52,917 nucleotides of DNA from a virus. Location: positions 1-52,917 of IMG/VR virus record IMGVR_UViG_3300013104_000030. One strand, 5' to 3'. Made by a program: the position numbers and the translations under genes. The notes below the pieces were generated by a model. That model was not told the origin of the DNA and made no database searches. It worked only from the letters and a program-made list of their open reading frames with translations. Position 1 is the stretch's first letter; every line of letters begins with the position of its first letter. Shown here piece by piece: positions 16,090 through 23,695 of this stretch.

Positions 16090-17808
16090 TTGGCTTGTGT
16101 AGAACGAATTAAACATGATGTTGAGCATTGTACTTCGGACAAAGGTCTGCAAGTATTTTATGATGATGGGAAGAATATTTTTACTGGATACTGTTTTTCG
16201 TGTGCTGCGAAGGGATTGGAGGCATATGTCTTTGATCCATATAACGGTAAACAGCCACGACCACCAAAACGTAAAACAGAAGATGAGATTAATGAGGAAA
16301 TCCAAGAGATTCGTAATCTGAAATCTCCTCGTGATGAACATCGAGGTATTGCACCAGAATACTTTGCTCGTGCTGGCATTAAATTAGCTTATAGTGAGTA
16401 CGACGGCAAAACACCATTTACCTTTAATTTCCCCTATACGCTTGAAGGGAAGTTGATGGGCTACAAATCCATTATGCTTGATAAAAAAGCAATGTGGTCT
16501 GTTGGCGATATCAAAGGCGCTGATCTATTCAACTGGGAAATTGCCAAGAAAAATGCAAACGGACCTAATCCTCGTCTGTACATCTGTGAGGGAGAATACG
16601 ACTCCAGAGCCCTAGAAATGATGCTTGAGGCTCATGCTGCCAAACGTAAGAGTCAATACAATAAGTTTGCTGTAACAAGTTTGCCTCATGGTGTTGGAAG
16701 TGCTGTAACTACAATCGGACGTATGCGTAAAGAGATTGACAATTACTTTAAGGAAATCGTCCTAGTATTTGATAACGACGAGGCTGGCAAGAAAGCTGCA
16801 AAAGAAGTTCAAAAGATCCTTCCAAATGTGAAGGTAAACATTTACCCAACAAATGCTAAAGATGCCAACGAAGCTCTGTTGAAGGGTGATGGGGATTTGT
16901 TTGCAGATTTCTGTATTTGGAAAAGTGCAAAACCTACTACTGAAGGTGTAGTAGGTGTTTCTGTAGTGTTGGGTCGTGATGATGCAGCACCTGAACCGGG
17001 GTTTGCTTATCCTTGGCAAGCACTTACAGACATGAATTGCACTCAGCGAATGGGTGAAGCTACTTGTACGGGTGCCGGTGTTGGCCTTGGCAAGACTCTT
17101 TTGTCTCATATGAAAGCTGCACACAATATTATTGAACACAAAGAGAAAGTGTTTTCTGTTCTACTTGAGGAACCAAACCGCTCAACACTTTACAATATTG
17201 CTGGTAAGATTGATGGGATTCCTTACCATATCCCAAGTGTCCACCAAGAGAATCGAGAACGGTATCTTGAAACAGCGTACAGCCTTGAAGGTAAATTGTT
17301 CTTGTGGGAAAGTGATGGACAAGCTGCCCACAATCGGTTCGATATTGAAGAGATTGTAAAAGCTATCCGCTACAATGCTATGGAGTATGGTGTTCGGTTT
17401 GTAGAGATTGACAACATGACTCGTTTGGTAGATCATTTGTCTAGCGCAGAAGCTAACGAATTTATCAACAAATGGTCTTCTGAGATTGCCAACCTTGCAG
17501 CAGAGCTTGATATTCACATTGGTGTGTACAGCCACTTGAACCCGCCAAAGGGTAAAGATGCAAAAGATCATGAGAATGGTGGTGAAGTATTTGCTTCCCA
17601 ATTCACAGGCTCTCGTGGTATTATGCGGGCATTCCCTTTGCTGATGAGTTTTGAGCGGAATAAACATGCTTCAGGTGATTTGAAATCAAACAGCTTTATC
17701 GGGTGTATTAAAAACCGAATGTTTGGCGGTGAAGATAAGTTTAAAACTCAGTATCAATCTAATACAGGTTTGCTCCTTCAGTATGAATGGGAAGGAGATT
17801 CACTTTAA
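16090..17808 (+). CDS. DNA primase-helicase (T7 gp4-like)
   Basis: 572 aa with TTG start (GGAGAG upstream). Residues 1-45 form a zinc-ribbon-like head (H9...C14...CFSC at 35-38). The TOPRIM domain spans ~155-240 with YICEGEYDSRALE (E167) and VFDNDEAGKKAA (D228, D230). The C-terminal RecA-type helicase has Walker A TGAGVGLGKT (K335), Walker B FVEIDN and a terminal arginine-rich region. It would unwind the fork 5'-3' and lay primers for the polymerase encoded next. The layout matches T7 gp4 and Twinkle; DnaB-only helicases lack the TOPRIM half. Confidence 0.92.
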   Translation: MACVERIKHDVEHCTSDKGLQVFYDDGKNIFTGYCFSCAAKGLEAYVFDPYNGKQPRPPKRKTEDEINEEIQEIRNLKSPRDEHRGIAPEYFARAGIKLAYSEYDGKTPFTFNFPYTLEGKLMGYKSIMLDKKAMWSVGDIKGADLFNWEIAKKNANGPNPRLYICEGEYDSRALEMMLEAHAAKRKSQYNKFAVTSLPHGVGSAVTTIGRMRKEIDNYFKEIVLVFDNDEAGKKAAKEVQKILPNVKVNIYPTNAKDANEALLKGDGDLFADFCIWKSAKPTTEGVVGVSVVLGRDDAAPEPGFAYPWQALTDMNCTQRMGEATCTGAGVGLGKTLLSHMKAAHNIIEHKEKVFSVLLEEPNRSTLYNIAGKIDGIPYHIPSVHQENRERYLETAYSLEGKLFLWESDGQAAHNRFDIEEIVKAIRYNAMEYGVRFVEIDNMTRLVDHLSSAEANEFINKWSSEIANLAAELDIHIGVYSHLNPPKGKDAKDHENGGEVFASQFTGSRGIMRAFPLLMSFERNKHASGDLKSNSFIGCIKNRMFGGEDKFKTQYQSNTGLLLQYEWEGDSL

Positions 17809-17819
17809 GGAGTTAGGAT

Positions 17820-19805
17820 TTGAAAAGTATTTATAACTGGAAGCAAGCAACAGTAGCTGACTTGGAAAGTGATAACCTTCTTGATAAGGCAACCAAACTT
17901 CATGTTCTTGGCTTTCAGATGAATGAAAATGACATCCAGACTTTTAGGGGTTCTTCCGAATCACAAAGGATTGTGAAGTTTTTTCAGTGGCATATGGAGA
18001 ATGAAGTGCCAATCGTTATGCATAACGGTATTTCATTTGACGTACCTTTAATGGAAAAGTTGTTTGGTATTGATCTGTCTAAGCTGATGCTTATTGATAC
18101 CTTAGCTCTTAGTTGGTATTTGAATCCTGAACGAAAAACTCATGGTTTGGGAACTTTTCACGAAGAGTATGGTATTGAGAAACCTCCTGTAGATGATTGG
18201 TCGGAACAACCTTACGAAGTATACCAAAATCGTGTGGTAGAAGACGTTAAGATTAACCAAGCTTTGTGGAAGGATCTTAAGAAACGTTTGATTGAACTAT
18301 ACACAACAGCCAAAACAGAAATTGATGTAGGTGCTGTGGGTGGTAAGCGTATCTCTGATGATGAGGTGTTGGCTATTGATGAATTGAGAGGTTTGTCTGT
18401 AGAACAACATATTAACCGACTACTTACTTTCTTGATGTTTAAGATGGACTGTGCTCGGCTGCAAGAGAAAACTCGTTGGGAAGTTGATACAGAACTTCTT
18501 TTCGAATCAGAAAAGAAACTTGAAGCAATTGTAAACGAAACAACGGAAGCCCTAGAGGCTGTAATGCCAAAGGTTCCTCAATACACAAAGAAAGAAAAGC
18601 CCAAGAAACCTTTTAAGAAGGATGGTAGCCTTTCCGCAACAGGTGTTAAATGGAAAGAGTTGATGGAGGTTTATGAAGCAAAAGAAGTAGATGAGTACGG
18701 CACTTTGCGAGTTGAAAGTACGGAAGTTAAGGGAGTTTTTAAGGTATTAAACGGTTACGAGGAACCAAAGGCATCTTCTCCTGCCCAAGTAAAAGCTCTG
18801 CTTTATTCACATGGTTGGGTGCCGACATCGTTCCGTTATGAAAAGGATGAAGAAGCTTTTAATGCTTGGGTTGAAAAGAAACCAAAGGAAGGCTCGCATA
18901 ACAGTAAGTGGACCGAATGGAAAAACAGTAAGCCTGAAGAACGTGCAATCCCTCAGATTAGTGTTGGTGGTGATGACGGTAAAGAGCTGTGTGAATCTGT
19001 ACTAGAGTTGGCTGAAGATGTGCCAGCTATTCGCAAGTATGCAGAATACAACGTGGCTAAACACCGACTGGGAGTCATCAAAGGCTTTATTCGTGACCTT
19101 AAAGATGGTAAGTGGCTGCAAGCTCGTATTGGTGGCTTTACTAACACTTTGCGTGTCATGCATCGTGAAATTGTAAATTTGCCCGGAGTAGACAAGCCTC
19201 ACGGAGAGTTAATTCGTGGTGGTTTGGTTGCCGGTAAGGGTAAGGTTCTATTAGGGTCAGATATGAGCAGCCTTGAGGATCGGGTGAAGCACAACTTCAT
19301 GTTGCCTCATGACCCTGAGTATGTAGCCACAATGCAAGAAGAAGATTTCGATCCTCATATTCTGATGGCCCTTACTGCTAAGATGATTAGTCAAAAAGAG
19401 TTTGAAGACTTTAAACGTGGAGAAAAATCTTCAAACGCAAAAGCTGCACGTAAGAAGGGTAAGACGACAAACTATGCTTCTGTTTACAATGCTGGGGCTG
19501 CCAAGATTGCTCAAGCAGCAGGCGTTAGTTTGAAAGAAGGTAAGACTTTGCATGAGGCATACTGGAAACTGAACTGGTCTGTAAAGGCTATTGCTGATGA
19601 GCAAGTTATTATCAGAGACAGCCGAGGTCGTAAGTGGCTTGTAAATCCAATTAACGGATTCTGTTATGCTTTGCGTTCTGAAGCTGATAGGTTCTCAACA
19701 CTGGCACAAGGTACAGGCTCATATCTCTTTGATATGTGGGTTGATAATATTTTGACAGAGACAGATAAAAGATACGGTAAGCAAACACTTACCGGCAGTT
19801 TCCAT
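17820..19805 (+). CDS. DNA polymerase family A, exon 1 (residues 1-662)
   Basis: TTG start with GGAGTTAGGAT upstream. The N-terminal 3'-5' exonuclease has DLE (D14, E16), NGISFDVP (D74) and VVEDVKIN (D142). The polymerase half has motif A LLGSDMSSLED (D481, E486) and motif B KKGKTTNYASVYNAG (K548, Y552; Tyr as in T7). Motif C starts with His662 (GSFH), where the coding sequence is interrupted. Read straight on, the frame ends at 19832 after KHHCGLAA. Splicing to 20055 restores HDE and gives 714 aa, the size of T7 DNA polymerase. Confidence 0.93.
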
Positions 19806-20054
19806 AAACATCATTGTGGCCTTGCAGCGTGAGTTGCATTGAATAACTTTGCTTAAACGGGGAAAGCTAAGGGATACGCAAGAGTCCTACGCCAACCTAC
19901 CGTGCTAAATTGTCGTAAGACATAAAAGCCTAGAGACTATCCTTCGGGAGTAAGGGGCAAGTGCCCTTGAAATAGCAAAGAACCTCTTTTGAGGTTGTGA
20001 TATAGTCCGACACCAGTTGAAAGGCTGGGTGCCTAACGAGCACACAACAGTAAG
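19806..20054 (+). ncRNA. Group I self-splicing intron in the polymerase gene
   Basis: 249 nt without an ORF. The 5' exon ends ...CCAT and pairs with GTGG at 19816-19819 (P1, with a terminal U-G pair at the splice site); the intron ends in G (CAGTAAG). A conserved P7 pair is visible as GACTAT (19935-19940) and ATAGTC (~20002-20007), with hairpins between them: CCTTCGGG, GGGCA-AG-TGCCC and AACCTC-TTTT-GAGGTT (P8). Removing 19806-20054 rejoins CAT to GATGAA in frame as His-Asp-Glu. Exact boundaries are inferred from frame and group I rules. Confidence 0.88.
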
Positions 20055-20213
20055 GATGAATGTATCTTGTGCGTCAAAGATAGTCAGAAGTTTAAAGATG
20101 AATTCTCTGCTCTTATTAAAGAGTCTGTAGATAAAGTAAGCCATAAATTTAAGTTGCGGAGAATGCTGGGGTGCGAAACACAAGCGGGACAACGCTACTC
20201 AGATATTCACTAA
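20055..20213 (+). CDS. DNA polymerase family A, exon 2 (52 aa)
   Basis: Starts with the Asp-Glu of motif C (DECILCVKDSQKFKDEF) and ends ETQAGQRYSDIH. The tail LIKESVDKVSHKFKLR resembles the C-terminus of T7-like polymerases. It has no own start codon or ribosome site, so it is expressed only through splicing with exon 1. Confidence 0.88.
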   Translation, partial: DECILCVKDSQKFKDEFSALIKESVDKVSHKFKLRRMLGCETQAGQRYSDIH

Positions 20214-20223
20214 TGGAGAAGTA

Positions 20224-20772
20224 ATGAAAGAAGTGTGGAAACCGATTATTCTTGATGATATTCAAGAACGTTACGCAGTCAGTAATTTTGGAAAAGTGAT
20301 TGACTTAAAGAATCAAAAGTATATGATATGGCATGACAACGGGGCTGGTTATATGAACGTTGGTCTACAAGGTCCAAACTCTAAAGTCAGAGTTCGTTAT
20401 GTTCACAGACTGGTAGCTATTGCTTTTCTTGAGAATCCTGATAAACTACCTCAAGTTGGGCACAAGGATCATACACGAGCTAACAATTTTGTTGATAATT
20501 TGTACTGGACAACACAGAAGCAAAACACAGCAGATGGTATTGAGGCTGGACGGATTAATGCAAATCGTCCTAAGACAAACCGCAAGATAACACCAGCTCA
20601 AATTTGTGAAATTGCTTTGCTTTCACATCAAGGAAAAGGTGTACATGAGATTGCAATTATGCTAGACTTCCCACGTACAACGATTTCTAGTGTGTTCAAT
20701 GGGCGTAGTAGTTGGGATCTGTTTGAGTTTGCAAGAAAAGAAATTGAAAATACCGCTGTACAAACCCAATAA
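20224..20772 (+). CDS. HNH homing endonuclease with NUMOD4 head (182 aa)
   Basis: EVWKPIILDDIQERYAVSNF is the NUMOD4 motif (DNA recognition). An HNH_3-type core follows: VHRLVAIAFLENPD then VGHKDHTRANNFVDNLYW. The C-terminus holds a helix-turn-helix (GVHEIAIMLDFPRTTISSVF). GGAGAAGTA precedes the ATG. It sits 10 bases after exon 2, outside the ORF-less intron, so it is a good candidate for cutting intron-free polymerase genes on behalf of the intron (collaborative homing). Confidence 0.88.
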   Translation: MKEVWKPIILDDIQERYAVSNFGKVIDLKNQKYMIWHDNGAGYMNVGLQGPNSKVRVRYVHRLVAIAFLENPDKLPQVGHKDHTRANNFVDNLYWTTQKQNTADGIEAGRINANRPKTNRKITPAQICEIALLSHQGKGVHEIAIMLDFPRTTISSVFNGRSSWDLFEFARKEIENTAVQTQ

Positions 20773-20818
20773 ATCATGCGAAAATAGATGTACAAATTAA
20801 ATTGTAAAGGAGAGAAAG

Positions 20819-21042
20819 ATGAAACATAAACTGCAAGCCCTTATCGAACGTCTTGAAAGTCAACATGATTTTGAGAATGAATTCTACCTGACCTACACAG
20901 GTCAACTGAATGATGGTGATATCTCAGACTGGCACAATAACCATTTGATGATAACGTAGAACTTGGATTCAGCACTGGTCAAACAAGCATGGCTGAAGAC
21001 GTAATTGTAGCACTTAAGAAAATTATTGAAGAGGAAGAATAA
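20819..21042 (+). pseudogene. Small gene with a -1-nt frameshift (~74 aa if intact)
   Basis: From the ATG at 20819 (AAGGAGAGAAAG) it reads MKHKLQALIERLESQHDFEN...DISDWHNNH and then stops. One frame over, DNVELGFSTGQTSMAEDVIV...KKIIEEEE runs to TAA at 21042. Adding one T to TTT (20944-20946) gives HFDDNVELG and a continuous protein. Homopolymer error or mutation. Confidence 0.65.
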
Positions 21043-23242: not shown

Positions 23243-23695
23243 ATGGAAACTAAACAAAATAAATACTATGTTTATGTCGCAATAAAAGAAGACGAGGTAG
23301 TCTATGTTGGCAAGGGCACAGGCTCTAGATATAAGCATTTAATTTCTGGTAAGAGTCATGTTTATGAAGCTAATGAATGTTTCTTTATGGGTATCAATTT
23401 TACTACGAAAATAATCGCCAGTTTTGATACTTCTGAAGAAGCCCTTTCTTTTGAAAGCAAAATGATCAAAGATATTAATCCGACTTGGAATTCCACTAGG
23501 AGTAGAGATGTAATTAGAGAAGGTTTTCTTGGAGTACACTTTGAACCTAATAGTAAGAAGCCGTGGAGATGTCGATTCAAGTATAAAGGTAAACAGTACA
23601 GCTGCGGAAGTTATGAAACAGAAATTGATGCAGCAAAAGCTCATGATTTATATGTGAAAACCAATAATATAATCCGTCCAATAAACTTTAGCTAA
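23243..23695 (+). CDS. GIY-YIG homing endonuclease with AP2 DNA-binding domain (150 aa)
   Basis: N-terminal GIY-YIG core YYVYVAIKEDEVVYVGKGTG (residues ~8-27), with catalytic-type Arg (SRYKH) and Glu (SFESKMI, ~75). The C-terminal ~45 residues form an AP2-like unit: GFLGVHFEPNSKKPWRCR ... GSYETEIDAAKAHD. AP2 plus nuclease is a known homing-endonuclease pairing. It is a separate insertion between a terminator and the exonuclease gene. Confidence 0.85.
   Translation: METKQNKYYVYVAIKEDEVVYVGKGTGSRYKHLISGKSHVYEANECFFMGINFTTKIIASFDTSEEALSFESKMIKDINPTWNSTRSRDVIREGFLGVHFEPNSKKPWRCRFKYKGKQYSCGSYETEIDAAKAHDLYVKTNNIIRPINFS

Follow-up and report, generated by a model that had tools for sequence, protein, structure and literature searches.

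Organization of the polymerase locus

The window (the whole stretch of phage DNA that was analysed, 52,917 nt) contains a replication locus in which a DNA polymerase gene is interrupted near its 3′ end. The features are as follows.

16090 to 17808, + strand: primase/helicase gene, which precedes the polymerase in the same replication locus (phrog_239, 405 bits)
17820 to 19805, + strand: DNA polymerase exon 1, 662 amino acids, last residue the motif C histidine (Pfam DNA_pol_A and RNase_H_2; phrog_17, DNA polymerase, 308.7 bits)
19802 to 19805, + strand: 5′ strand of P1 (CCAU), the last bases of exon 1; pairs with GUGG at 19816 to 19819; invariant in 7 introns
19806 to 20054, + strand: group I intron, 249 nt, ORF-less, last base G20054 (RF00028, covariation and intron-free alleles in relatives)
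19811 to 19819, + strand: internal guide, UCAUU (P10 with GAUGA of exon 2) and GUGG (P1)
19937 to 19941, + strand: 5′ strand of P7 (GACUA), the G-binding helix; pairs with UAGUC at 20004 to 20008; invariant in 7 introns
20055 to 20213, + strand: polymerase exon 2, 52 amino acids and stop codon (20211 to 20213), first residues Asp-Glu; tblastn of intron-free relatives crosses the junction
20224 to 20772, + strand: free-standing NUMOD4-HNH endonuclease gene, 182 amino acids (Pfam NUMOD4 and HNH_3)

Exon 1 ends with LTGSFH and exon 2 begins with DECILCV. When the exons are joined, they encode a family A DNA polymerase of 714 amino acids, which aligns end to end with intron-free relatives. The intron site is exactly between His662 and Asp663, and this junction aligns with H881|D882 of E. 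coli Pol I and with H653|D654 of T7. The initial annotation had placed an ORF-less intron of 249 nt at this H|DE junction and had stated that the catalytic aspartate is lost without splicing. Its coordinates proved right to the base, and the unspliced frame reads SFHKHHCGLAA, with nine extra codons and a stop at 19832, upstream of the catalytic Asp-Glu.

The interrupting element is a group I intron

The element is certainly a group I intron, as had been proposed. A covariance search with Rfam RF00028 matched the full-length model at 54.6 bits (threshold 50; E 3.4e-11), and this was the sole Rfam match within the window. The group I hallmarks are present, namely a U before the 5′ splice site (forming a U-G pair in P1), a 3′ G and P10. 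Because the guide UCAUU-GUGG pairs with both exon ends, the splice sites are fixed independently of the alignment. The minimum free energy of the intron alone was uninformative (z -1.06) and covariation was used instead. Seven ORF-less introns from the same site (those of the window, L031, L033, L024, L183, L184 and L186) were aligned, helices P1, P2, P3, P7, P7.1, P7.2, P8, P9 and P9.1 were scored, and shuffled alignments and slid structures served as controls. Standard pairs filled 95.5% of the cells; shuffled alignments gave 79.2% and slid structures 36-47%. Cells in which both sides had changed numbered 70 versus 26.6 expected, and none of 500 shuffles reached this value. In these seven introns P3 and P8 covary, and P7 (GACUA/UAGUC) is invariant. 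P4 to P6 can be recognised clearly only among the three closest introns and align poorly in the more distant ones. The presence of P7.1 and P7.2 presumably places this intron in subgroup IA.

We infer that the intron is spliced in this phage. Certrevirus CB7 carries an intron at the same site, and its polymerase introns were reported to be spliced in vivo by RT-PCR (PMC7344957); thus, splicing at the exact H|DE junction is supported experimentally in a relative. One may instead imagine that the interruption is never removed and that the polymerase gene is broken or comes in two parts. We regard this as very improbable, because it is at odds with the covarying fold and its P1/P10 guide, with intron-free alleles that join exactly at the junction, with the occurrence of a 90% identical intron in other genomes and with the CB7 report.

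Related introns at Pol I site 881

Other genomes were scanned with short patterns from the 5′ part of the intron, without polymerase-derived bases past the last codon. Most of the 79 loci listed by the pattern scan were chance matches, and loci were retained only if they followed the His of a polymerase motif C. The related introns number more than a dozen, and every locus with an intron-like continuation lies directly after this His; the host polymerases are too different for DNA alignment. The members are given below with the nucleases inside or beside them; each intron-internal call is backed by Pfam.

ORF-less introns: window, 249 nt; L031, 250 nt; L033, 250 nt; L024, 265 nt; L183, 226 nt; L184, 228 nt; L186, 224 nt
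HNH gene inside the intron: L098/L175, 614 nt (the HNH resembles T3 5.3 by eye); L123 (Escherichia phage Av-05), 843 nt; L179 (Pectobacterium phage phiTE), 687 nt; L203/L205, 740 nt; L199
LAGLIDADG_2 gene inside the intron: L189, 919 nt
Free-standing nuclease gene directly after exon 2: window and L031, NUMOD4-HNH; L024, a relative of NUMOD4-HNH; Av-05, a more distant relative of the window HNH (32% identity); CB7, an HNH; L186, a GIY-YIG gene overlapping the stop

Judged by these sequences, the window intron is one of a lineage that occupies Pol I site 881 in many phages. This kind of intron was already known, and the window intron is a real further example. Rfam gives 81-99 bits for the more distant members, and the introns of L031/L008, L033 and L024, up to 90% identical to that of the window, score below the RF00028 cut-off. 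Because such close copies are missed, Rfam-based surveys undercount the lineage, and split polymerases of the L031, L033 and L024 sort are probably under-annotated. In L212 (Vibrio phage qdvp001), an intron-like match at 1801-1992 overlaps the annotated end of the polymerase CDS, and this annotation is probably truncated.

Probable movement of the intron between phages

The window intron is 90% identical to that of L031 and 89% identical to that of L033, and the values are 93% and 92% when unpaired columns alone are counted. Between the same phages, identity at the third codon positions of exon 1 is only 49-50%. This difference suggests that the intron probably moved recently among the three phages. 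The alternative is strong constraint on the intron; however, the distant introns of the L024 type share only about 60% in the same unpaired columns, so that the sequence is free to diverge. In the tree built from exon 1, the carriers of the intron form two groups, and both groups also have intron-free members. A co-converted tract around the intron was sought in the window, L031 and L033, and no long one flanks it: third-position identity was only weakly and unconvincingly raised (47-70% among carriers within 15 codons of the intron).

L030 and L032 are 89% identical to the window in exon 1 and fall to 52% in its last 60 nt and 57% in exon 2. Their polymerase 3′ end has been swapped abruptly, starting some 60 nt upstream of the intron site, and the swapped end is common to the distant phages L038, L042, L045, L046, L065 and L072. 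This break was considered as proof that the window had gained the intron, and the idea was rejected on the exon trees. The exchange is more simply placed on the L030/L032 lineage, which would be the recipient of a foreign intron-free 3′ end.

The free-standing HNH gene

The initial annotation had reported a free-standing NUMOD4-HNH gene close behind exon 2. The ORF does start 10 nt past the polymerase stop, and its product matches Pfam NUMOD4 at 31.6 bits and HNH_3 at 23.8 bits, slightly below the cut-off of 24.8. The closest PDB entry by sequence is I-HmuI (1u3e, E 7.4e-13), which is also the closest fold to a structure model of the protein (pLDDT 89; E 5.4e-9). The domains follow the I-HmuI order of NUMOD4, HNH and helix-turn-helix. 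His80 and Asn101, at the positions of the I-HmuI active-site residues His75 and Asn96, are invariant across 18 HNH relatives. The position of I-HmuI Asp74, which we take to be a metal ligand, is Gly79 in nearly all members of the family. Nuclease activity and a cut site in polymerase-locus DNA are predicted. The gene is under purifying selection, because dN (0.10-0.15) is far below dS (at least 0.43, the largest values being saturated).

The HNH gene has a mosaic structure. From nt 240 on, its 3′ half shares 93-100% identity with HNH genes located behind family B polymerases, and its 5′ part is different; the mosaic partner of window 20224-20772 is 5001-5549 of L002, a phage with a family B polymerase. 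At the other end of the gene, window 20745-20825 is 95% identical to intergenic DNA of L053 (7166-7248), a genome without the HNH gene, and the last HNH codons (ENTAVQTQ) fall inside this DNA. Given that L053 lacks the HNH gene, the HNH reading frame extends into flanking DNA that was already there. A further free-standing endonuclease-like ORF, with weak GIY-YIG and AP2 matches, lies at 23243-23695 of the window, directly before an exonuclease gene.

Occurrence of the HNH family with and without the intron

The nearest relatives of the window HNH (L002-L004, 85% identity) lie behind family B polymerases, and an HNH gene of this family follows the polymerase in 16 of 32 family B loci. These polymerases have no H|DE motif (their motifs, read from sequence, are DxxSYYP, KxxxNxxYG and NTDG) and are assigned to a different PHROG than the window polymerase. 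Family A polymerases that lack the intron are followed by the HNH gene as well, namely in L006, L022, L013, L014 and phage vB_PsaM_M1. Conversely, L033 has the intron and no homolog of the window HNH anywhere in its 83.8-kb record; thus, the HNH is not needed for keeping the intron. The two elements are therefore apart in L033 and in the five phages just named, and they occur together in the window, L031, L024 and Av-05, whose polymerases are very different and where exon 2 is followed directly by a NUMOD4-type or HNH_3 gene. Because it follows both family B and intron-free family A polymerases, the HNH is, by this distribution, a parasite of the polymerase locus, whichever polymerase is there. 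A target at H|DE is possible, but the distribution does not call for one.

Possible spread of the intron and the HNH gene

We lean slightly towards an explanation in which a separate HNH gene behind the polymerase homes and the linked site-881 intron is often carried along. The HNH would be a separate, I-HmuI-like selfish gene of the polymerase locus, and would most likely nick or cut polymerase-locus DNA of co-infecting phages. Repair from the window genome would then copy the HNH gene, and often the linked intron, into these phages; such copying would be collaborative homing in effect. Several observations weigh against this explanation: the HNH relatives behind family B and intron-free family A polymerases, the HNH-less intron of L033, the lack of a long co-converted tract around the intron, and Gly79 in place of the I-HmuI Asp74. 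The intron may confer immunity to cutting by the HNH, and joint mobility of the two elements is plausible; the idea that they share one target is only faintly suggested by the sequences. Collaborative homing had been proposed in the initial annotation. The layout agrees with it, being that of the T3/PhiI polymerase and of cyanophage psbA; the HNH genes behind polymerases without H|DE speak against a shared target, as do those behind intron-free family A polymerases and the HNH-less intron of L033.

The HNH genes behind family B polymerases likewise give weight to the view that the HNH is an independent passenger, which has its target elsewhere (the 3′ part of the polymerase gene, a neighbouring gene or intergenic DNA), homes without an intron and shares no target with it. 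The HNH genes behind intron-free family A polymerases and the HNH-less intron of L033 also fit this view. On the other hand, several unrelated polymerases, L186 with its GIY-YIG gene among them, share the pattern of an intron with a free-standing nuclease directly after exon 2, and the T3 gene, whose spacing is identical, is reported in PMC10448857 to target the intron site. We consider the independent passenger a serious candidate, with a chance appreciably below even. Another scenario starts from an ancestral mobile intron that lost its internal endonuclease, the outside HNH being gained separately, and the series would then lead from inside to outside; we put it not far short of an even chance, and it and the homing explanation that we favour can hold together. 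Introns of the same lineage with an internal HNH (L098, L123/Av-05, L179/phiTE, L203 and L199) or LAGLIDADG_2 (L189) are consistent with such a loss, as is the free-standing HNH of CB7, which among those compared is nearest to the intron-internal HNH of Av-05 (38%). However, no endonuclease remnant was seen in the 249-nt intron, and in none of the four closest carriers does the intron have an ORF, so that the steps may have run in either order. This bears on a further proposal of the initial annotation, later fusion into a mobile intron: internal endonucleases do occur at the same site in the same lineage, but an order in which the free-standing nuclease came first is indistinguishable from loss followed by gain.

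A broader reading, which we hold to be rather unlikely, is that site 881 might be a shared docking site, where one ORF-less lineage is mobilised in trans by unrelated nucleases and repeatedly captures and loses internal ones. It is with the same reserve that we would name the trans nucleases, NUMOD4-HNH in the window, GIY-YIG in L186 and the T3-type HNH, and the internal ones, several HNH types and LAGLIDADG. If this were true, each stage in the assembly of a mobile intron would be represented among living phages, even within this one family. How endonuclease genes come to be part of group I introns has long been asked. The relatives of the window give matched states at one codon junction (neither element, intron only, HNH only, both apart, nuclease inside), and this natural series around the window intron makes the assembly of a mobile intron testable.

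Other interrupted polymerase genes

Some relatives have insertions near polymerase residues 532-569. These were considered as further introns and rejected: they are apparent inteins or ORF-splitting endonuclease genes without an Rfam intron match. Family B polymerase genes are divided into two ORFs near residue 569 in L235 and L240 (AP2-type HNH) and in L238, L239 and L241 (GIY-YIG), and Rfam gave no group I intron in these five; at this site, genes are thus in pieces through two unrelated nucleases. Family A polymerase genes likewise consist of two ORFs, separated near residue 532 by HNH/AP2-like genes, in L074 (6584-7140) and L078 (6596-7188). The insertion at residue 550 of L066 (3634-4622; also L067 and L070) is in frame, lies in motif B (KGKT|C...N|CNYA) and has the appearance of an intein.

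Comparison with described systems

Introns of PhiI and W31 were reported at Pol I site 881 (PMC3428280), and the case of T3 5.3 with the PhiI/W31 intron has been named as collaborative homing (PMC10448857). As in the window, the polymerase is of family A and a free-standing HNH gene lies directly behind it; in T3 the spacing from polymerase stop to HNH start is identical. In contrast, the PhiI and W31 introns contain I-TslI (PhiI was compared by description) and the window intron contains no gene. Moreover, T3 5.3 is another type of HNH than the NUMOD4/I-HmuI type of the window, and BLAST of the window HNH against T3 5.3 and PA11 gp14 gave no similarity. Because the window uses a different HNH family from T3, the arrangement of intron and adjacent HNH appears to have arisen with different nucleases. 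The targeting of the intron site by the T3 gene is credited to Bonocora and Shub 2009 in PMC10448857, and an endonuclease-turnover hypothesis, in which an outside endonuclease replaces the internal one, is also put forward there (PMC10448857).

The introns of Certrevirus CB7/phiTE and of Av-05 (Vequintavirinae) occupy the same H|DE site as the window intron, and CB7 carries the phiTE intron (96% identity). Their 5′ ends are alike (CAU|AARUAACAUUGUGGC versus CAU|AAACAUCAUUGUGGC in the window), and CB7 and Av-05 also have a free-standing HNH after the polymerase. Unlike the window intron, those of CB7, phiTE and Av-05 are 687-843 nt long with an HNH gene inside, and they sit in strongly divergent polymerases. 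I-HmuI of phage SPO1 has the same fold and domain order as the window HNH; however, it is intron-encoded at Pol I site 674, whereas the window HNH is free-standing at the 3′ end of the gene. In cyanophages, F-CphI is likewise a free-standing nuclease adjoining an intron-bearing gene, although it is of the Endo VII type and the host gene is psbA. For F-CphI, cleavage of the intronless site and its blocking by the intron have been shown, whereas for the window HNH both are suppositions. We found two characterised phage systems of collaborative homing in the literature, and the window is a candidate for a third, with a different nuclease family.
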